Shown here: positions 20,417 through 64,000 of the stretch, piece after piece
Numbering within the stretch: position 1 is the first letter of the stretch
Layout of the letters: each line of letters begins with the position of its first letter
NCBI GenBank assembly: GCA_950295325.1
Contig: OX485803.1
Span: 54,327,554-54,391,553 of the forward strand
From: Polytrichum commune
Taxonomy: Eukaryota > Streptophyta > Polytrichopsida > Polytrichales > Polytrichaceae
Length of the DNA stretch: 64,000 nt
Reading direction: 5' to 3'
Position numbers and translations under genes: made by a program
Notes under the pieces: generated by a model
What the model was told of the DNA's origin: nothing
Databases searched by the model: none
The model's input: only the letters and a program-made list of their open reading frames with translations

Positions 20417-20826
20417 TAGTTTTGGAGGAAGTTGGGCTAAATGGTAACTATAGTGACTTAGTCGTATTTTGATACAAATGGTCATACTAGAGAACGCCAT
20501 TCTTGGGGTAGTCTGTGTTTGATGAGCAACTTCAATGAGCACATCATATAATCACAAACTCTCTTTACTTCAGAGACTGGCACACCATGAGATAGTTTGT
20601 TCCAATGTTACTAGGACTACCCACCTCCTTGAGAGAGATCTTTTGAGCCGGTTTATATTCTCCATTTATTTGCCGTACCGATTAGTTTATTGCTGGGCAT
20701 GGGCCATGATCGGCACGAGGTTCGGAACTCGGGCATAAAGTTCTCCCTAACATTACCAAGCCCAATGGTATTTACTCCATTCCGGGGATCGAGGTTCGGC
20801 AGAACGACGTCAGAGCTTGAAATTGA
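20417..20826. other. Spacer between MITE and Harbinger element
   Basis: Nothing is recognised. The open frame of the Harbinger transposase extends leftwards into this stretch only by chance, since it crosses the transposon terminus at 20827. Confidence 0.5.
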
Positions 20827-21103
20827 GGGCCTTGCCAGACGACCGGCAGGCATGCCAGTCGTCCGGGCTAGGATAAACTGGCAAGTAGGGTGGCCACGGA
20901 GGACGAGGGCAGCGGCAGCCACCACACCGGCGGCTCTGCCCAGCCGGCAGCCTGTCACAGGGGGAAACTGCGAGGAAACTGTTGACTTTCGGCCAGCAGA
21001 CTGCTTTGCAGAGCAGTTCGAACCAGGGCACTCTTTTACAGAAACAGGGCACTTGCAGCTAGATTTGAAGATAGCTCAAAGACCTGAATTTCTCTTTGTC
21101 AAT

Positions 21104-22510
21104 ATGGAGCCCGAAGTGCAAAGGCTCCTTGTGTGTCTTGCATTTCAAATCACTTTGTTCATCATTTTGGAGACCATATCAAGCAATAAAGCTGCGATTG
21201 CCGTGTGGCATTGGCAACAACTTTGTTGTATGACAATGGCGTTCCAGGGTTTTGTGCAGCTTCGGGGGAGGCGGCCACGAAGATTGTGGGCACACGAAAG
21301 AAGTCTATATCAACCAAGTTTCTTTGATCAAAATTTGTTGGGGTCCTTTAATGCGCGGGAGTTCAAGGGTAGAATGCAGATGGACGTCTCGACTTTTGAG
21401 TATTTGTGTAGCACTCTTGCTCCGTTGTTACAAAGGCAAGATACAGCAATGCGGTTGGCCATTCCGGTTCAAGTCAAAGTTGTCGTATCCATATCGAGGC
21501 TGGCCACAGGTAATTTCATTCAAAACATAGCGGATTTGTATAGGATTGGGCTCTCTACCAATCAAGCGGTTGTGTCTCAATTTTGTGGTGCTATGAAATC
21601 GGTTTTGCTCAAGAAATTCATTAGGTGGCCTTCTTCCTCGGTCATGGAGAAATTCGCCGAAGAATTTCAGAACTTACACCAAATTCCGTATGTGGTGGGG
21701 GTTGTTGATGGATCCCACATACCCATCATTGCGCCCCGGCTACATGCTGCTGACTACTACAATCGGAAAGGATTCCATTCCATACTTCTTCAAGGTGTTG
21801 TTTCTAGCAAGTGCCTCTTTTGGGATTACGACATAGGGTGGGCAGGGTCAATGCATGATGCCAACCTATGGGCTAGGACGGACATCGGCCAGTTCTTCGA
21901 GGCTGGGAGCCTATCGCCGTACGCTCTTGTTGGCGACGTTGCTTACTAGTGCAGGCCCTGGATGTTGGCACCCTACAAGGGCCACAAGGATGGGCTCTCA
22001 CGGGAGGAGTACCATTGGAATTTCGTTCAAAGTTCAACGCGCATGTGCGTTGAACGAGCATTTGGTATGCTTAAGGGCAGGTGGAGAATTCTTCTAAAGA
22101 GGGTGGACGTTCATTTAAAAAATGTGTCTGAATTGGTAACGGTGTGTCTGTTACTACACAACATGTGCATAATATTCGGAGACAATTTCTGGAAGAACGA
22201 ATGGATGCAAGAGGCTACAGACGAGGTACACAACGGCATGTCGGTTGCTAATATTCCAGGTACAAGTAGACAAGAGAGATTGGCAGTAGCCAACCACGCA
22301 TTGCACAGCCTAGCTGCAATTGACGACAATAGTATGGAATCCTTGGAATACGACAAGCAAGAGCCTGCAAAGGAGTTTCAAATTGCAATGGGCACCGGTG
22401 GGAAAACATACAAGGAGCTATGTGCACGTAGAAATGGAATAGCAAAGAGCCTTTGGATGGCAAAAACAAAAGCAGACATTGCACAAACTTTCACAATGGA
22501 TACTGACTGA
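21104..22510 (+). pseudogene. Harbinger DDE transposase with one amber stop
   Basis: From ATG at 21104 the frame runs 469 codons to TGA at 22510, broken only by TAG at 21947-21949 (codon 282). The catalytic triad is all in this frame: D202 in GVVDGSHIPI, D252 in GSMHDANLW and E317 in CVERAFGMLKGRWRIL. The HTH-like N-terminal part contains FKGRMQMDVSTFEYLCSTLAPLL and RLATGNF, as in plant PIF/Harbinger nucleases. The stop falls between GDVAY and CRPWMLAPYKG, exactly where intact relatives read through (consensus GD.gYp..pwLl.Py). No frameshift is seen, so a single substitution explains the damage. Unless the stop is read through or this is a sequencing error, the copy cannot make full-length transposase. 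In this superfamily the transposase needs the partner Myb-like protein to enter the nucleus and bind the ends. Confidence 0.93.
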
Positions 22511-47210: not shown

Positions 47211-48144
47211 ATGCCGCAGAGGATGAGAGCTACAACTCAAGCCAAAGGGTGTGAGTGTGCACATGCATCATTAAAATATTTTGAGGCTTCCGGTTACCAT
47301 TGTAGTTAGGGGTGTTGACATTGATATCACATTGCTGGTCAATTTGAGGAGGTTCATTGAGGACCATTGCATTGTCGGGTCGTGTGCCATTGAGAGGGGC
47401 GGTGCATTGACCCATAAGCATTTCCAAATGGTGCTCAAGGGTAATTTTAGCAATTTGCTTGTGTTGAACAAGAAGATCAAGGTAGCTTTGGGATGTCATG
47501 TTGATCCGCCAACGGGTCGTGTTGTTTCTTGCAAGAAGTTGAGAGATGAGAGCCTCCACACTTTTTGGGGGATGGTTGGGTATTGCATGAAGGATAATGG
47601 GCAAGATCATTTTGAATTTGTGCATTATAACGTGTTTGCGGAGGATAGGAGTGAGGGAAAGATGAAGCACACAAAGTTTGGCAAGGTGGGTTTGAAAAAA
47701 TGTGTCAGCTTGTCTCACAACAACATTTTGCAATGTGTTCATCAATGGGCAAGATCCCACATGAAGAAGCATTTGGGTGTTAGTCCCCTTGGGACCCTTT
47801 TTCACATGTGCAAGAGTGGGTTGTTCTATCCAAATCCTACTTGGGTCATTCCATTGCAATCCGCAGGCATGGATGTGAGGAGGGCATCTTCAATTTGGAA
47901 GATAATAAAATGTCCAGACAACATCAAGATGGAGGATATTTCTAATGGATTTTTCGATACTATCAAGGGAATGTCAAATCTACGTTACTTTAATGCGCAA
48001 CATGTTGCATTAGACCATAGGATGGAAAAGCGTGACCTCAACATGGCTCTCCATGACAATGACAAAGTGACTATGGAAGGGGATGCCATAGATGAGGCTA
48101 CGTACTTCAACATGAACATTCATTGTACTATTCTAAGAACTTAA
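47211..48144 (+). pseudogene. HUH-endonuclease Rep protein of replitron type, frameshifted
   Basis: The gene starts at ATG 47211 (MPQRMRATTQAKGCECAHAS), runs to about 47305 and then shifts frame by one base. The second frame is open to TAA at 48144 and begins VRGVDIDITLLVNLRRFIED. Rep-like motifs are in order: GSCAIERGGALTHKHFQMVL contains an H-hydrophobic-Q metal motif of the HUH class, and about 70 residues later GMVGYCMKDNGQD contains the Tyr...Lys catalytic motif (YCxK). The downstream part (KKHLGVSPLGTLFHMCKSG, FYPNPTWVIPLQSAGMDVRR) has no helicase motif. Proteins with a stand-alone HUH domain of this kind are encoded by replitrons, transposons thought to move through a single-strand, rolling-circle-like process. 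Apart from the single frameshift the copy is well preserved. Protein-like text continues in other frames to about 48.44 kb (HFGREYVSTLTF, CLPDLLITW), so the C-terminus is decayed. Confidence 0.75.
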
Positions 48145-50397: not shown

Positions 50398-51031
50398 GTT
50401 CAATTCACATGTAGAAATTTTGGTGTTGTCACCAAGAAGTATCATAATTTCAAGGCTTTGTAAAAGGGCCTCGTGTCTAGCTTCCCCACTCGAGCACTTT
50501 CATTTGTCGGTTATGCATGTCCTCAATAACTCACGAGAGGTTTGGTAGAATGTACTTGCCAATGGTCACATTGTTGTCCATACCCTTAGAATTTTCAATG
50601 TAAAATGCTCTCCAATATATATATATATATATATCAGAGATATGGAGATTATACTTGCATGCATGTGATCTCATAATAGAAATCTTTATAACTTTGTAGA
50701 AGGAATCGGGGACAACCATAGTGATGTATTGGATTATTTTTGTTCATTCAATGTTATATTGAAGAACTCCTCATGCATGTAAGGGCTATTAATGTGCACT
50801 TCTTTCATGCTCCGGAATAAGATTTGAGATCATAGACTACTATTCCACAAAGTCTAGTCTGCAAGGACACAAGAAACATATTCTCTTAGTTTGGATTAAG
50901 TTATCCATGTTAAGGTGTGTGTTGAGTAACTTATACATCAAAACGTTACTCCACCAAACTCCCAAACACTTAAAGATAAGTATCCATATTTACCTCCAAA
51001 CTTTCTTAAAGAAACACTAAGGATATTTGAA
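50398..51031. other. Left flank of the LINE; 5' part of the element unresolved
   Basis: A TA run lies at about 50614-50633. From about 50940 the base composition already resembles the LINE, but the frame carries several stops (for example 51008-51010 and 51029-51031). If this is the N-terminal part of the element it is too decayed to read. Confidence 0.4.
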
Positions 51032-51079
51032 CCCCTTACCGAATATACACACCCCCCACCCACACCACCACCACCCCGG

Positions 51080-51900
51080 CCACCACAAACAGGACAAAAC
51101 ACCAACCACCATACACAAATCATCACATGGAATGCCTCATCATTAAGCACAACACTCCTAGCATACAAAACCTCATTCACCACTCGCACGAAATACCTGC
51201 CATAATCACCATACAAGAAACTAAATGGACATCAACCAAATCTACTAAATACATTCAAAATATATTCCCATAATACAAATTAATTTTTAATAACACTCAT
51301 GCGTTAATCATATGCATCCAACAAAGAATGCCGTATACCCCTGCTAGAGGAGGCCTTCTCACACTCATACACAAAAAATATGCATTCCAAGGAAACATTA
51401 CCAAAATACCCTCCCCGGCCAGCATATCACCATACATACAAATCATCCACATAAAGAACAACCCACTTCAACCATGGCTATTAATACACATGTACATGCC
51501 ATCACATGAAGAAGACACTAGACTAATCCCCGAAATAATGCATACCATCAATATACAAATAACTACATACCCGAATCACAAACATATAATATGTGGATAC
51601 TTTAATAGAGACATTGCACTAATAGGTAGGCAGAATGAACACGGTGCCACCCCCCCTCAAGAAGAAGATATTAGATGGAGAACATACACCAATAATTTAC
51701 TACTTTCCTATATCCCTACTAATACAACGTACTCTAGGCAAGGAGGACTCAACTATACAAACACCAGCCTCATAGATGGTTTCTATACAAACATACAACA
51801 TGCAACAACATACACATCAATCACACTCCAAGATCAAAACCTTAACTCCGACCATCTACCGGTCATCCTAAAAGTACCACCAAACACCCTAATAGCTAGA
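51080..51900 (+). pseudogene. LINE AP-type endonuclease domain
   Basis: Text begins IITWNASSLSTTLLA and, after a frameshift near 51150, continues IPAIITIQETKW (the catalytic Glu segment). After the stop at 51271 come MPYTPARGGLLTLI, the block IICGYFNRDIALIGRQNE, YSRQGGLNYTNTSLIDGFYT and NLNSDHLPVILK. These are the NAS, QETKW, GDFN, S.IDhif and SDHLPV blocks of LINE endonucleases. In this copy the GDFN aspartate is Tyr (TAC at about 51597), which should abolish cleavage. Confidence 0.85.
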
Positions 51901-52495
51901 ATAACACAACCCCCACCACCCCTAAAAAACAGAATTGTGAACCCTATCCCACAAGAAAACCTCGACAAATTCAACACCAAGTTTTTCGAAGAAAATGCAA
52001 TCCAACTAAATGAAATATTCACATTACTATCTAACAATCAACTAACAAATGAACAATGGCACATGACATGTACACAAATGGACAACATCACGAGAAAAAT
52101 CTCAAAAACTATAGAAGAAACATGTAATACCACACCTACACCCACATTAACTAACAGGGCCAATCAACAAGGAGGGTACATTCCCAGAAAAATCCAAAAA
52201 ATATGGAAAAAACATATATCCAGTTACCACCTAATAAGAAAAACAATATACATTGTAAAAATACAATAAATTGGCGCACACACCCTATAATTAACACGCT
52301 AGAGAGGCACAATCACATACGCATACCTTCCCCACATGAAAATAACCTACAACTAAACGAATGGATAAAAGAAATAGCAACATTAGCCAAAATAGCAAAC
52401 TTACAAGCTAGAAAAATCACAACCAAATATACTAAAGACTGTATTAAGAAAGTAATATCCAAATATAGAAGACTATATGAAATAAGCCCAAAAAA

Positions 52496-54010
52496 ATAAA
52501 TAGAAGAGTATTCAAAAACTTAGAGACTCCGCCATTAGATTGTATCACAGACCGAAATAATTATATACTCACTAACCCAGAAGACATAGCAAATGAAATA
52601 CATATACAACAATCTATCAGCAACAGACCCACAGTTTCCACATGTTACTACTTACCAGACCACCCCCTAGAATGTACGTGTGCAGTAAGACAATACCCAT
52701 GGCACGACTTTGAAGGACTAGTTTTGGACAAACGTGGTGACCCGCACATACCCCTATACACGTACTTTGACCTAGAAACGTACAACCTATGCCTTAAAAA
52801 CCTAGCAAACAACAAAGCCCCAGGCCCCGATAAGATACCCAACTCCATAATCAAGAACATGTCCCAAAAATTCCAACACATATTATTCTTATATTTTACA
52901 CATTGCTACAAACACAAACAAATCCCAACATCCTGGAAAATTAGCCTTACAATATTACTCTACAAAAAAAGGGATCCATTTTTACTATCCAACCAAAGAC
53001 CTATAGCACTTGCAAACACTATATACAGATTTTTTACTAGCACACTAACATCAATACTCTCGTCATATGGAGAAAAATACCAAATCCTAAAAAACAGCCA
53101 AGAAGGATTTAGAGCAGAAAGATGTACGTCAAGACAAATACAAATACTAATAGCCGCATTAGAAGACGCCCAATTCACCAACCAAGATATTTATCTTCTT
53201 TACATTGACTTCAAAAATGCATTTGGATCAATCGACCATGCCCGACTATTAGCCATCATGAAAGATTTAGGATACCCAGAAGACGCAGTCAAACTAATTG
53301 GAAACATATATTCACACTCTAAAACTATATTCACCGGAGAATACTTTGGCCAAACAAAAGAAATACCAATTCAAAGAGGTACTATACAAGGGGACACCCT
53401 GAGCCCATACTTCTTTATTATATTCCTAGAACCACTACTAAGGTGGCTACAAAAATGCAAGTATGGATACACCTTTGGAACATCTAATTTCATAATCAGC
53501 CCTACAACATACGCAGATGATCTAGCCACAATCACCAACAAACTCACATCAATACAACCACAACTAAACAAAATAGATAAATATTGTGAAATAGGCAGGT
53601 ATGGACCTTGGAATATCAAAATGTGCAGTCACATGATGCCCTAACAAATCCAAACTGAATCAAATAACATTCAAAAGACAAATACAAACCGCCAACATTA
53701 CATACCGAAACCATACTGTCCCAGTGCTACACCAAAACGAACTATACGTATACCTAGACATTCACCTAGTCCCTTCCTTCAAATGGAAGATACAAACACA
53801 CATCACAACCACTAAGTTAATAAGCCAATGTAGCCAATTAGCAAATTGCCCAGCAACAATCAAACAAAAAATTAGCATGGTAGATACAGTAATCAGAGCT
53901 GGAATCGCATACATTTTTTATGCAGTCCCATACTCACTGCTCGAAATCATAAAATTAGATAAAAAAAATCATAGCAATACAAAAGAGAATATGCGGACTC
54001 CCCAAATGCA
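52496..54010 (+). pseudogene. LINE reverse transcriptase domain
   Basis: The frame opens with INRRVFKNLETPPLDCITDR (from 52496) and continues through ANNKAPGPDKIPNSIIKN, GFRAERCTSRQIQ, LLYIDFKNAFGSIDHARLL and IQRGTIQGDTLSPYFFIIFL to the catalytic TYADDLATI (53510 on). These are the RT fingers and palm motifs of APE-type LINEs, and the active-site YADD is intact. A frameshift near 53590 and a TGA near 53618 precede the thumb-like region (HQNELYVYLDIHLVPSFKWK, TVIRAGIAYIFYAVPYSLLE). Confidence 0.9.
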
Positions 54011-54734
54011 CATCAAATATGGTCACTCAATTACCCCATGAGTTGTTTGGAATAGAAGCATTTTTACTAAAAAATGCCTACCTTAGATGTATTGGGAAAC
54101 AACTCAGAAACGCACTAAATGACAAAGGTAAACTTGGAACAATCTACAAAGGGCTTACACACTATATACTTGCCAAACATGGAGGAGCAAAAAATATACC
54201 TAGAATCAAACACCACGATTGTAACCGATCACCCACCACTAGAACAATATACCTTATAAAAACAACAGGTGGAGCCCACCTCAGAAGCCATTTAGAAACA
54301 TTCCCTCTTGAAGCAACACCACTCAAAAAAGAATGGCACAAACTATCCACAACACCACCTCCACAAAACATCTCCAATCAAAACCTAAAACACATACACA
54401 AACTACTCTTAGAGAACATATATGACATAAAACAACTCACTTTAAGAGTTGGCACACACATGATGTCCCATACTGAATATATAAACTACTACAAAAAACC
54501 AACACATATGCTAAAAGAAACACTAAAAATAGCAGAACAACTATTTTGCCACCCAGGATGCAATGAAAATTGCCTAGAGTCATGCCAAAACCATTACCCA
54601 CCACGCACACTAAAACAAGCATACATTATAGCAAGACACAACATAGAACTTGTAAACAATGATACCCACACACATCCACCATTCCCAATACACCCGCCTG
54701 CACCAACACACATAATAAACAACCCAACAAAATG

Positions 54735-55720
54735 CCCTATACACTCAGTAATAGACCACTATATAGTACCAACCAAAGATAAACATAAAATCATAAAAAA
54801 ACAATACACATATCTATGCCAATGGGTACTACCCAATGGTACAACTTATAACAAAAAACTCGCGCAAAGAGAATTATTCCCTTATAACATCCCAAGAGTC
54901 ATACAACATAATACAAACATAATACTAACATACTTCACTAAGAAAAAACACACAATATACGAAAATATAATACGAGGAAACGATTTCTTTACCCAAAACA
55001 AAGACCCAAGACACATATCCCCACCCCTAAACATTCCCCTTGTAAATATATCTATCCAAGAATGCAACCCGGAAAAAGATATCAACACTAACACAAATAA
55101 AATTCAAGTACAAGGTGAAAGCACCCACATATACGACGAAATAGGAAAACACCTTATAACCATTCCACAGGATAGACTCACATGGCTATGGAATCAATAC
55201 AATCGAATGCTACATCAACCACACGACCTAATACCTCCCACCCAAACATTCGAAATAGAAATAACCTGGCTACATCAACGATACAAACACAGAATCCCAA
55301 AGAATGACCCACTCAAAAACTCACACCACACCTTACCCAAAGTATTACTAGACTACATTACAACATCCTTTAAGATTACCCATTCCTACTTCTCCTCACC
55401 AGTCACATGCTCCACTCAACTAACGAAATTATGCTCACCATTTCCCAGAGATAAAATATTTGGATCCATAGGTATTGCATTCTCACATAAATGGCACGGA
55501 ATAGGTTATGCCCACCCTCACAATGAAAGAGAAGCCCAAGAAGCCATCCACTAGGCTAGGTTAGCAGCTAAACACAACCCAAACTCCATCACAATACTCA
55601 CCATCCCAGACATAAACTGGTATCAAAACCCCACCCCATACATAGGCCCCTTCCCAGACATACATGTAATCACCCATATACCAGCAGACACCACTAAATA
55701 CGAGGAACCAACAAAACCAC
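54735..55720 (+). pseudogene. LINE central region: chromodomain-like and PCIF1-like segments
   Basis: Upstream at 54548-54600 is a cysteine cluster (CHPGCNENCLESCQNH). Then CPIHSVIDHYIVPTKDKHK and YLCQWVLPNGTTYNKKLAQR resemble a chromodomain (V..I..HR...YLv.W....tWe...eL). From 55.33 kb the text is IPKNDPLKNSHHTLPKVLLD, HSYFSSPVTCSTQLTKL, RDKIFGSIGIAFSHKWHGIG, YAHPHNEREAQEAIH, a TAG stop (Trp position), ARLAAKHNPNSITILTIPD and then DIHVITHIPADTTKYEEP. The order FSSP-C, D..FGS-G, G.....NPPF-like, A(x~12)P...ti..IP, and HxxxxIPA....Y matches the PCIF1/CAPAM methyltransferase core. The NPPF catalytic motif reads HPHN here. PCIF1 methylates cap-adjacent adenosine at N6. The homology is by eye, and activity is doubtful with the altered motif. 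Confidence 0.5.
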
Positions 55721-55999
55721 CAGAATTCAATGAAACACGAATAGAAACACTTGTTATAAGAATCCTATGCGTACACCACCAACTCAATAACATAGGTACA
55801 TCCGAACAAATGAACACCATAAAAAACATATGCAATAACCTTGACATAACACGCATAACCACGCAAATAGCCCCTCCTACCCCACAAAATATAGAAGTTA
55901 ACATAAGCAAAAAATGGAATGCCCTTACAAACTTAAGCCCAAACATACACTATCACAACACAACCCCACCAATCCCAAACTACGAAAATGAAACACCCC

Positions 56000-56470
56000 T
56001 TAAATTCCCACCCCAATACTGCTTCTACACGGACGGATCCTTCAACCCACCGAAAAAAGTAGGAGATACTTGGCTAAGGGAAGAAGTTGGTTATGGTATA
56101 TACAATCAAGAAAAAAATATCAAACTTGCAATGAGGCTACCAGGCCTACAAAATATTTTTAGAGTGGAATTAATGGCCATACACCACGCCCTTACAATAA
56201 TAAACAATGACTTCCCAAATGAACCCGCCCATATCTTCACATATTGTCTCAATGGCCTATATGTGATAAAAAAAACCAAATAAAACACCCCACACTACAT
56301 AACAACCACCCGGATAAAATCATCTTAGAAGAAATTGTTAAGTTCCTTGTCCACAGAACGCAACCCACAACATTATATAAAGTCAGAGCACATGCAAACA
56401 TTAAGGGAAACGAAGAAGTTGACGCACTTGCCAAAGAAGGAACAGCTATGGAACACCTCAACGCCTCCCA
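56000..56470 (+). pseudogene. LINE RNase H domain
   Basis: QYCFYTDGSFNPPKKVG supplies the first catalytic Asp and RVELMAIHHALTIINND the Glu. HIFTYCLNGLYVIK stands where the TDS block with the second Asp should be, but has Tyr (TAT near 56240). A frameshift in an A run near 56270 follows. The domain ends with LYKVRAHANIKGNEEVDALA, the conserved v.aH.....N..aD.lA helix with the last Asp. So the fold is clear, but this copy has lost one catalytic residue. Confidence 0.88.
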
Positions 56471-56789
56471 ACCACATGAATTTGCCCACTCAACCCCATA
56501 CTACTATCAAAGAAACGAATGGCCATCAATGGACTCAACCCCGGACAAAGCACCCATCAGATTCCTTGAAAAACACCTTATAAAATACGATAAAAATATA
56601 AACCTAAAATTAATCCCTACACTATATCCCAACATAGATAAATGGATAGCCAATGAAACAATAGATAATGAATTATCAAATAAATTTTGGACAAACAAAA
56701 ACATTACGGATGCTCAAAAAACATGCCTTCTAAAACTAAGACATGGCCAATACATGGGGAATGCCAGAAAACAATTATTCTTCGGTAGG

Positions 56790-57476
56790 GAAGCCTTCCC
56801 ATCAATCACATGCCCCATATGTAACTCCCTAGACCCAGACACATGGCTACACGTACTCCTAAAGTGTAAACAACACCACATACATGCCCTCAGAACCAAA
56901 GACATAATAAGGCAGTGTGGGAATTAAGAAAACTAATAGTGGCATAAAAAAAATCAAGATGTTTTGTTCTCATGAATGCAGGCACATATAACAATAACCC
57001 ACCAAATAACACAGTCCCCCCATGGCTACTACCCTGCATGTGCCGCCAACAAAGATGTCACTGCAATGCCAGATTCAAACCCGACCTCCTATGTGTGAAA
57101 GGACTGCCATACCAAATCCCCACCACCGGCAGAACCAAACGAGAACCTCACAATACAATTCATAGAATTCACATACTGCAATGATAGAATACCAGATGAT
57201 ACTATAATCAGGAAAACAAAAAAATATAAACCATTAATAGACAACATACTCAATAGAGGCTGGAAGATAGACCCACTATTAGTCATTACGGCTGATGCTA
57301 GGGCAGCCACACACATCCCCTCTATGAAGAATATTGAAGGAATATTTAAAATCCCTAAGGTAAATATCAAACACACATTTGAGGAAATTAACGTTATTGC
57401 CATACAATATGCTATGTCCATAATCCTACACAAAAGAAGAATAGAAAACAACGAACCACTACCAACAGATGCATAA
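56790..57476 (+). pseudogene. LINE CCHC knuckle and restriction-like endonuclease segment
   Basis: CPICNSLDPDTWLHVLLKC fits C-x2-C-x9-H-x4-C, the zinc knuckle that precedes restriction-like endonucleases in R2-type LINEs. After a second Cys group (CMCRQQRCHC) comes RFKPDLLCVKGLP (the KPD/RPD motif). Following a frameshift near 57120 there are TIQFIEFTYCNDR and RKTKKYKPLIDNILNRGW, then PLLVITADARA. The spacing KPD, E-x-T, K-x-x-K-Y matches the PD-(D/E)xK core of R2 and Dualen endonucleases. The second copy shows the same blocks (RPYIIYIPGAPYE, IIEFTFTHDRY, KRDKYNPLIEAIKTQGW), so the motif is a family property. Confidence 0.7.
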
Positions 57477-57785
57477 CCACTACTAGATTCCCATATACAC
57501 CAAGTAGCGAACTAGTAAGTAGGATGAAAAAAATAAAAAAATAAATGCCAACGAAAGCTAAGGAAGTATACCCAACTGATAAGTGCCCATAGGCACCTGG
57601 CTAGTCTGGTTACTATAGTGCCCACCCCGAGAGGGGTTAGTAGTCCTACACCACTCGTATTATGTCCTGAGGGCATAATACCAAGGGTGGGTCGAACGGC
57701 CATTCCAATCACGCTGATCGCAGGGTCAACGTTTCTTCTCTTCTATGTGTTGAGTAACTAATTTGATCATGCACTGGTTGATTAA

Positions 57786-62539: not shown

Positions 62540-64000
62540 TGTATGTGGGGAAGTGGCTCTTATCTGGGAGGTTGTATGGGGTTTTGTTTATTATCTAGTT
62601 TTCTTTTGTTAAGTACTAGATATCTGGGGTATTTGATTGCAATGTGGTGAATAGTTTTCACTAATTTCTTGATGGCGTTAGGGGGGGGTGTGTAAGGTTT
62701 CTAGTAGTTTGATATATATATATTTTTTGTATGAAGCCACGAACTCTTGAGGTGATGACAATGAGGGGGTTGACTTGCTATCCTTGTGTTTTGATGGCTT
62801 CTATGAGGGGGTTGTATTTGTCTCTTTTGGTTTCAATGTATGGGGTTGTGTATCTATCGTGTGTGAATGTGAATTCTATTATTCGGATGATTAGGTGGGG
62901 GATTGGGATATGTGGCCTAGGTTGTTCGTATGGTGCTCCTGGGATGTATATGATGTATGGTCTTAGCCTTGCCAGGCATGTGCATTTAGTTGTTAGGCAT
63001 GAACATGGCACGGGGAGGTCACTTCATTGTCAAGTTGACACCACGTGCGGACAAAGTTTGCTACCCCTATATTACATGCCATATATAATTTTAAAATTTA
63101 TGATATTTTTTCTACATATACATAACCATTGATAGTATCTTTTGTATACTTTTTTGAAATTTTTAGTCATCTTTGTTTTTTTAGTAAATTTTTTAGTTCA
63201 ATTCTGTGTCATTCTAGTTAGAAACGGTATGTTTTATGAAAAAAACAAATCATAAAATTTAGTTACCACTTTTGAATATGTCATAGGTACTGTGTATATC
63301 TACTCATGAAAAAAAATTGATAAAATTTTGACCCATTTTGGTGGTGCAACTTACCAAAAGAAGATTTTTTTTGGTCGCACGTGGTGTTCAACTTGACAAT
63401 CGAGTGATCTACCCGTGGAACATGGGAGTATCCATGGCATGATGGTGGTTGATTGTCAATTTTGCCAATGTTTGTGAGTGCATGGTGTCTTGTGTGGATA
63501 CACAATTTAAGTAGGTTGGCCAGTTGGTGGGTTGCGGCATTTTGTCTTGCTATTCTAAGGCCTTTGAGGAATTTGTGGTTGCATGTAGATAGCAAGTGTG
63601 GCCATGTGTCTTTGTCATTGTTTGGGCATAGTGTGTAGTTGGGGTTGGTGAATTTGAGGGGCCAGAAGAGGTTTTTTCTATGGTTACCAATATATTGGGC
63701 GGTTCTAAATTTTAAGATTTGAGTGATTTGGGCATCTGAAGTTTGTTGTGACTTCCAAAAGGAGTTGGATAGTTTGTGGTGGATTTGGTCGTTAGAGATC
63801 TATTTTTCTGCGTAGTGGAACTGTTTGACTTTTTCTAATGTGATCCTATTGTATTATTTGTTTATGAATATTTTTTGGTTCTTTATTATTTTGCAGAGGT
63901 TGGTTGTTGAGGGTGGTTTTGCAAGCCTATAGGGTGTGGTGTGTGCTATATGTATGTGTGGTATTGGGGTTATGGCAGTTTTACTGGTGCCCTCGATGGC
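62540..64000 (-). mobile_element. Second copy of the dual-endonuclease LINE, 3' part, cut by window edge
   Basis: Minus-strand text matches the first copy from the end of RNase H to the C-terminus: AIEGTSKTA at the edge, KFRTAQYIGNHRKNLFWPLK, CPNNDKDTWPHLLSTCNHKF (zinc knuckle), RPYIIYIPGAPYE, RIIEFTFTHDRY and KRDKYNPLIEAIKTQ. Near the end IHHIAIKYPRYLVLNKRKL corresponds to IAIQYAMSIILHKRRIENN in the first copy. Several stops and frameshifts are present and a MITE interrupts it at 63019-63407. The two copies are clearly diverged, so they derive from separate, old insertions of one family. Confidence 0.85.
63019..63407. mobile_element. MITE inserted in the second LINE copy
   Basis: The arms contain TTGTCAAGTTGA followed by ACCACGTGCG on the left (63027-63049) and their complement on the right (63375-63400). 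Outer bases TCACTTC/TCACTCG are also inverted. The 389-bp AT-rich element splits the LINE between the knuckle region and the endonuclease region. The exact target duplication was not resolved. Confidence 0.7.

Follow-up and report, generated by a model that had tools for sequence, protein, structure and literature searches.

The segment between the reverse transcriptase (RT) and the RNase H of a LINE in the moss Polytrichum commune appears to be a relative of the catalytic core of PCIF1/CAPAM in which the catalytic NPPF motif has been replaced in all copies compared. It is rather likely that this PCIF1/CAPAM-derived domain entered the LINEs in an ancestor of two clades and has been kept as a non-catalytic, RNA-binding module of the polyprotein. 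The domain is found in two separate LINE clades, matches the PCIF1 family in Pfam and PCIF1 chains in the PDB, and evolves under purifying selection.

The LINE copy in the window

The window, by which the whole analysed stretch of 64,000 nucleotides is meant, contains a copy of the element, assigned to clade A, and a 3′ fragment of a LINE of a second clade, clade B. The features are the following:

50935..57755, + strand: clade A LINE copy with the PCIF1-like domain, recognised from an AC-rich coding region and a series of ORFs; ends approximate, judged by eye
51478..51867, + strand: APE-type endonuclease (Exo_endo_phos_2), Pfam E 1.3e-5, slightly under the cut-off
52964..53587, + strand: reverse transcriptase (RVT_1), Pfam E 3.3e-22, with YADD at 53510
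54535..54594, + strand: Cys-rich knuckle CHPxC..C...C, 3′ of the RT; a motif with possible zinc binding
54721..54936, + strand: chromodomain-like segment (YLCQW...L), from Pfam Chromo and PDB profile matches of the family
55048..55902, + strand: PCIF1/CAPAM-like putative pseudo-methyltransferase domain, from the PF12237 match, the alignment with 49 other copies and PDB profile matches
55231-55494, + strand: Pfam PF12237 match inside the domain
55513..55524, + strand: HPHN, at the place of the PCIF1 catalytic NPPF in the profile alignment to human PCIF1 (6irv)
56014..56441, + strand: RNase H with a broken frame; two ORF pieces match PF00075 at E 7e-4 and 3e-4, both under the cut-off
56805..56867, + strand: CCHC knuckle CPICN...DTWLHVLLKC, a sequence motif
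57147..57476, + strand: C-terminal domain with a [RK]PD...E...K..KY pattern, at motif level a possible restriction-like endonuclease
63281..63799, − strand: 3′ fragment of a clade B LINE, whose long-frame relatives have a PCIF1-like domain with FPTD

The window copy is broken, being frameshifted and apparently truncated at the 5′ end, and a TAG stop at 55552-55554 interrupts its PCIF1-like domain. By eye, its 3′ UTR resembles those of the clade A copies L005-L008, at the 3′ ends of which (CTAT)n tails are found. Exo_endo_phos_2 is matched in L005 at E 1e-7 and in four clade B ORFs at 1e-7 to 5e-6, the RNase H (PF00075) of L005 reaches E 3e-15, and the closest PDB relatives of the L005 RT are R2 retrotransposon proteins. 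A single ORF combines APE, RT and RNase H in the Pfam scans of L005, L057, L058, L060 and L061; in L006 the same kind of scan lists RT and RNase H, with APE absent. The CHPxC..C...C pattern is preserved in the majority of 48 aligned rows, and none was seen in the clade B ORFs compared.

Similarity to PCIF1

An earlier note, made from the letters of this stretch, had read the segment between RT and RNase H as a counterpart of the PCIF1 catalytic core on the basis of five motifs, all of which are in place: FSSPVTC (55390-55410), DKIFGSIG (55450-55473), GYAHPHN (55504-55524), TILTIPD (55591-55611) and HVITHIPAD (55663-55689). The parallel in order holds for the FSSP, FGS and NPPF places, and the form FSSP.nC that the note gave for PCIF1 is FASPLNC in the PCIF1 alignment. 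The HVITHIPAD motif is likewise present, but its equivalence to the HxLIlPA that the note gave for PCIF1 is one of order only; it lies past nearly all of the Pfam matches, with a single match of the 150 listed extending beyond profile position 160.

The Pfam PCIF1 profile, which the same note had proposed to run on the translation, does match, contrary to the missing profile hit that it had named as one half of a refutation. The 531-aa ORF at 53959-55554 is hit by PF12237 at E 2.1e-7 and 31.1 bits, a score equal to the curated cut-off. The Pfam name of PF12237 refers to a WW domain, but according to PMC7641849 the family corresponds to the CAPAM-like methyltransferase. A search of the P. commune genome with PF12237 gave 697 candidate places, and all of the 150 that were scored lay over the cut-off, with a top E-value among them of 1.1e-12; two of these 150 sit in open frames longer than 2,900 codons, in which the first several hundred codons are probably a leader. 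The L005 domain taken alone is matched at E 9.3e-14, and matches were obtained in all 14 members of the clade A domain alignment.

Comparison with known structures gives the same answer. When searched against 177,635 distinct PDB sequences, a profile of the clade A domain found two PCIF1 sequences (E 0.003 and 0.023), and PCIF1 chains were the only ones up to E 0.1, the next match being an unrelated ribosomal protein at 0.82. With clade B included, the profile matched PCIF1 entries 6irx at E 0.0015 and 6irv at 0.11, with no others up to E 1. In the alignment of the clade A profile to 6irv, the residues H, P, H and N fall on N, P, P and F of the human protein. Three reversed and three shuffled domains, six of a set of ten such sequences, served as Pfam controls and yielded no PCIF1 match, one shuffled domain matching an unrelated family at E 0.18. 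The homology to the PCIF1 catalytic core claimed in the earlier note is thus supported by the Pfam matches, the PDB profile matches and the occurrence in two LINE clades, and we infer that the domain keeps a Rossmann-like fold. A structure prediction for the window domain, run as a single sequence with the TAG read as Q, had a mean pLDDT of 34.7 and did not resolve the fold.

In scans of L005, L006 and four ORFs of clade B, Pfam lists no WW domain, and the PCIF1 helical domain was not recognised by the general profiles. A cellular PCIF1 of the host was not seen among the best of the 697 candidate places, the four best of which (L001-L004) are LINE copies, and a gene split by introns could escape this kind of detection. 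No relatives were found in collections of viral contigs and prokaryote genomes, which hold few or no eukaryotes.

A second LINE clade with the same domain

The fragment at 63281..63799 led to clade B through L056, a fragment that matches L005 at E 1.6e-49, is cut off a little upstream of the RNase H and is not informative on its own. Five copies, L057-L061, were selected for their long frames from 151 matches, and two of these, L059 and L060, are near-identical in sequence. The domain order of all five is that of clade A. In three pairs of copies compared between the clades, the identity is 57-63% in the RT, 40-46% in the PCIF1-like segment, 41-45% in the RNase H and 42-45% in the C-terminal domain. 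With the clade A domain profile, each of the five clade B copies gives a match, at E-values from 2e-68 to 6e-76. PF12237 is found in all four of the clade B ORFs scanned, with E-values of 2e-6 to 1e-5 and scores that stay under the curated cut-off.

Selection and conservation of the domain

The core of the PCIF1-like domain has a dN/dS of 0.09-0.13 in six pairs drawn from both clades. In the clade A pair, L006 and L008, the value for the core is 0.10, compared to 0.09 for APE, 0.05 for RT, 0.05 for RNase H and 0.08 for the C-terminal domain. Among the five clade B pairs, the core ranges from 0.09 to 0.13 and the RNase H from 0.04 to 0.08, while APE lies at 0.11-0.21 in four of these pairs and RT at 0.02-0.08 in three. 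Overall, APE ranges from 0.09 to 0.21 in five pairs, the sixth not being computable, and the C-terminal domain from 0.06 to 0.11. Between clade A subfamilies the core values are 0.08, 0.14 and 0.19 where they could be computed, and all of these figures are rough, several pairs having a dS that is saturated or could not be computed. The values all point to purifying selection on the PCIF1-like domain, at about the level of the endonuclease and weaker than on RT and RNase H. The suggestion of the earlier note that the domain may be a structural leftover seems too weak a description for a segment under selection of this strength.

Conservation of the core is highest between FSSP and HPHN, where 24 of 47 columns are conserved at a level of at least 95% as opposed to 42 of 139 in the rest (p 0.013); by entropy the difference has a p of 0.002, both p values treating the alignment columns as independent. 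Across nine cluster representatives, invariant columns number 24 of 47 in this stretch and 31 of 139 elsewhere in the core. Selection together with a conserved pocket region argues for a ligand. Against a non-catalytic role, the conserved pocket could also reflect continued use of a cofactor or a substrate.

These observations bear on the reading in which the fold serves merely as a spacer that separates RT and RNase H and has no ligand. Such a role would suit the position of the domain between two functional domains, the absence of the catalytic motif and the weaker selection than on its two neighbors, but a spacer gives no account of why the invariant columns concentrate around the former pocket, nor of selection approximately as strong as that on the endonuclease, and the reading is considered rather unlikely.

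The replaced catalytic motif

Among 50 clade A copies with letters at the place of NPPF, the motif reads HPHN in 34, HPHT in 11, HPPN in two, HPYN in two and HLHN in one, so that 49 copies conform to HP[HPY][NT]. The first residue is histidine in all 50 and the second proline of NPPF is gone in 48. In clade B, all five copies have FPTD. NPPF itself occurs in none of the 50 clade A and none of the five clade B copies, and the fourth position, a phenylalanine in PCIF1, is taken by N, T or D in every copy of the two clades that has letters there. Genome-wide, the clade A motif in the context GYAHPH[NT] is found at 278 sites and the clade B motif in the context GLAFPTD at 76, whereas NPPF in the exact clade A or clade B context has zero sites in either, in a search that skipped very common words; the reversed-pattern controls also gave zero.

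The 50 copies are 49 genome loci and the window, L002 being excluded as a duplicate of L005, and the loci comprise 40 taken down the list of 150 PF12237 matches as well as the first ones extracted. The alignment has 51 rows, the extra one being a second piece of L017 that does not include the motif, and pieces with fewer than 100 aligned letters were excluded. As the best PF12237 matches were picked, the sampling would favor copies with NPPF and not hide them. The copies are not independent, with 33 of the 51 rows in one cluster; at 75% identity, however, they fall into nine clusters, and the H-motif is present in all nine, which indicates that it is old in clade A and not an accident of the window copy. 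As to which form is ancestral, a question raised in the earlier note, HP[HPY][NT] thus extends over every clade A cluster, while an NPPF precursor is seen in no copy of either clade.

The consequences of such changes are known from related enzymes. In METTL16, changing N, PP or F of the motif is reported to abolish methylation (PMC7927073); in PCIF1, disruption of NPPF lowers the activity (PMC6318281), and changes of N or F serve as inactive mutants (PMC10544176). One published summary of the m6A methyltransferase motif is [DNSH]PP[YFW] (PMC7927073), and a histidine in the first position alone therefore does not rule out catalysis. The LINE domains have neither N at the first nor F at the fourth position; the replacements differ between the two clades, and each is nearly fixed in its own, which makes methyl transfer unlikely.

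The earlier note had suggested an RNA methyltransferase that could mark or protect the transcript of the element, and this part of it finds no support, given the absence of NPPF in all 50 clade A and five clade B copies and replacements that are nearly fixed and clade-specific. That the domain is still a working methyltransferase, for N6-adenine or another target, which uses an unusual motif and marks the RNA of the element or its new cDNA, is decidedly improbable. This reading would agree with the FSSP-to-HPHN stretch being the most conserved part of the core, with the histidine tolerated in m6A enzymes as summarized in PMC7927073, and with the precedent of retrotransposons carrying DNA methyltransferase domains under purifying selection (PMC5890265), but it has to contend with the loss of the second proline in 48 of the 50 clade A copies, with the F-P-T-D of clade B and with the unfavorable fourth residue, in view of the reduced (PMC6318281) or abolished (PMC10544176) activity of PCIF1 NPPF mutants. 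In Drosophila, the F of the PCIF1 NPPF is changed to H and no m6Am was detected according to PMC9479742; the change could explain the missing modification, but the link is loose, as the same source describes bees that have no m6Am despite a mild F-to-Y change in their PCIF1. Finally, a LINE linker that resembles PCIF1 by chance or by convergence, to which the modest PDB E-values (0.0015 to 0.11), the score of the window just at the Pfam cut-off and those of clade B below it might be attributed, is very hard to reconcile with separate Pfam matches in two clades 40-46% identical in the segment, a best single-copy E of 9.3e-14, the lack of any other PDB family up to E 0.1 and control domains free of PCIF1 matches.

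A possible role in retrotransposition

The preferred explanation is that of a captured and repurposed domain. A PCIF1/CAPAM-family cap-adjacent adenosine methyltransferase domain would have been acquired by the common ancestor of clades A and B and placed in a polyprotein with the putative order APE endonuclease, RT, chromodomain-like segment, PCIF1-like domain, RNase H and CCHC/C-terminal domain. The domain would carry out no methyl transfer and may instead offer the retrotransposition complex a platform that binds RNA. As a guess, its ligand would most naturally be the 5′ end of the mRNA of the element itself, because PCIF1 binds the m7G cap and the first nucleotides, and binding of the capped end might then favor full-length capped RNA as the template.

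Such a model could be extended to a cap reader that keeps hold of the LINE mRNA by its m7G-capped 5′ end as RT and RNase H proceed from the other end, the 3′ one. In PCIF1, recognition of the m7G cap is reported to involve both the methyltransferase and the helical domain (PMC7927073, PMC10544176), and since the helical domain, which is involved in the cap contacts, was not recognised in the LINE, the guess of a cap ligand is weakened and the cap reader in particular is considered unlikely. If it were true, only intact, capped transcripts would be copied to completion, and the LINE would own a quality check for full-length templates beside a chromatin-reading segment for target choice.

Comparison with known systems

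The domain shares with PCIF1/CAPAM the PF12237 match and the same order of FSSPxTC (FASPLNC in PCIF1), FGSxG and the NPPF place, and differs from it in the replacement of NPPF by HP[HPY][NT] or FPTD, in the lack of a listed WW domain and in its position within a LINE polyprotein. Drosophila Pcif1 is likewise a PCIF1-family protein with an altered NPPF, and a paper by Franco et al. reportedly calls it catalytic-dead in its title. The fly protein, however, is the product of a cellular gene, whereas the LINE domain belongs to a retrotransposon and has changes at both ends of the motif. The moss LINE may be, besides flies, a further case of PCIF1-family proteins retained without methylation.

As an element, the moss LINE appears to resemble the Dualen/RandI group of green algae, with which it shares APE, RT, RNase H and a 3′ tail that is not poly(A), and with which it may, at motif level, have an RLE-like C-terminus in common. 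Dualen is described as having APE plus RLE as well as RNase H (PMC4640811), and the 3′ tail of RandI is tabulated as other than poly(A) in PMC3747384. The PCIF1-like domain and the chromodomain-like segment may set the moss LINE apart in this comparison, which was made from published descriptions. Retrotransposons with DNA methyltransferases are already known; SymbioLINE-Dnmt, SymbioDIRS-Dnmt3 and KnitGypsy-Dnmt3 are retroelements with a captured DNMT domain under purifying selection (PMC5890265). They are similar to the moss LINE in carrying a captured methyltransferase-type domain under such selection, but theirs are cytosine DNA methyltransferases of another family, in contrast to the putative PCIF1-derived pseudo-enzyme described here. 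Some of the choanoflagellate eTudor-DCD proteins have a CAPAM-like domain, which, as in the moss LINE, adjoins a type of domain that reads methylated proteins (PMC7641849); these are cellular proteins and not a retrotransposon polyprotein.

Among the titles and abstract openings of the matches listed from the open literature, none points to a LINE with a PCIF1-like domain, which is not proof of novelty. A relative of a cap methyltransferase that is kept in a LINE polyprotein without its catalytic motif would add a new component to non-LTR retrotransposition. It also opens to experiment the question of how full-length RNA is recognised by the LINE that encodes it.

Other modules and neighboring features

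The chromodomain-like segment is the least conserved of the segments compared, with a between-clade identity of 26-30%, while YLCQW is kept in the window and in the equivalents in L005-L061 and a second W is present in the aligned rows. Pfam Chromo is matched in five of nine family members (best E 0.0013), and a profile of both clades has the CDYL2 chromodomain at the top of the PDB matches with E 0.054, an unrelated proteasome subunit standing beside it at 0.056. With clade A alone, Chromo is found in three of 12 members (best E 0.017) and the PDB matches of the profile include no chromodomain. The segment is called chromodomain-like only, since the Pfam model PF00385 stays under its cut-off, the whole L060 scoring 12.8 bits as opposed to 25.1; in the whole-ORF Pfam scan Chromo is not listed for L057, L058 or L061.

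At the other end of the polyprotein, the CCHC knuckle and the [RK]PD...E...K..KY pattern are present in all eight aligned ORFs from both clades, and the C, C, H and C of the knuckle are invariant across four aligned rows. The pattern of the C-terminal domain is like that of restriction-like endonucleases; Pfam gives no match for this domain, and its best PDB match is unrelated (E 0.65).

Upstream of APE, 2A-like NPGP sequences are found in L005, L006, L007, L008, L058, L059 and L060. The strict motif D(V/I)ExNPGP, of which peptides are known in other non-LTR elements (PMC4981915), is matched by L005 (GDIETNPGP), L008 (GDIEPNPGP) and L058 (GDIELNPGP), in which ribosome skipping is putative. L006, L007, L059 and L060 have D-I-[KQH]-P-NPGP, which is outside the strict motif, and L059 has two 2A-like sequences in tandem, about 150 codons apart.

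L006 (C4:34.92 Mb) and L007 (C1:51.77 Mb) are 99.7% identical over 10.6 kb and have different 3′ flanks, pointing to recent movement. The window also contains, at 47275-48144 on the + strand, a Replitron-like HUH endonuclease ORF (Replitron_HUH 2e-15 and Replitron_C 1.6e-8), and, at 20633-22510 on the + strand, a two-piece ORF that presumably resembles a Harbinger-type transposase. Elsewhere in the genome, whose TTTAGGG telomere repeats and chlorophyll-binding proteins are those of a photosynthetic plant, 14 chlorophyll-binding protein matches with equal scores lie within about 95 kb at C5:1751760-1846160.
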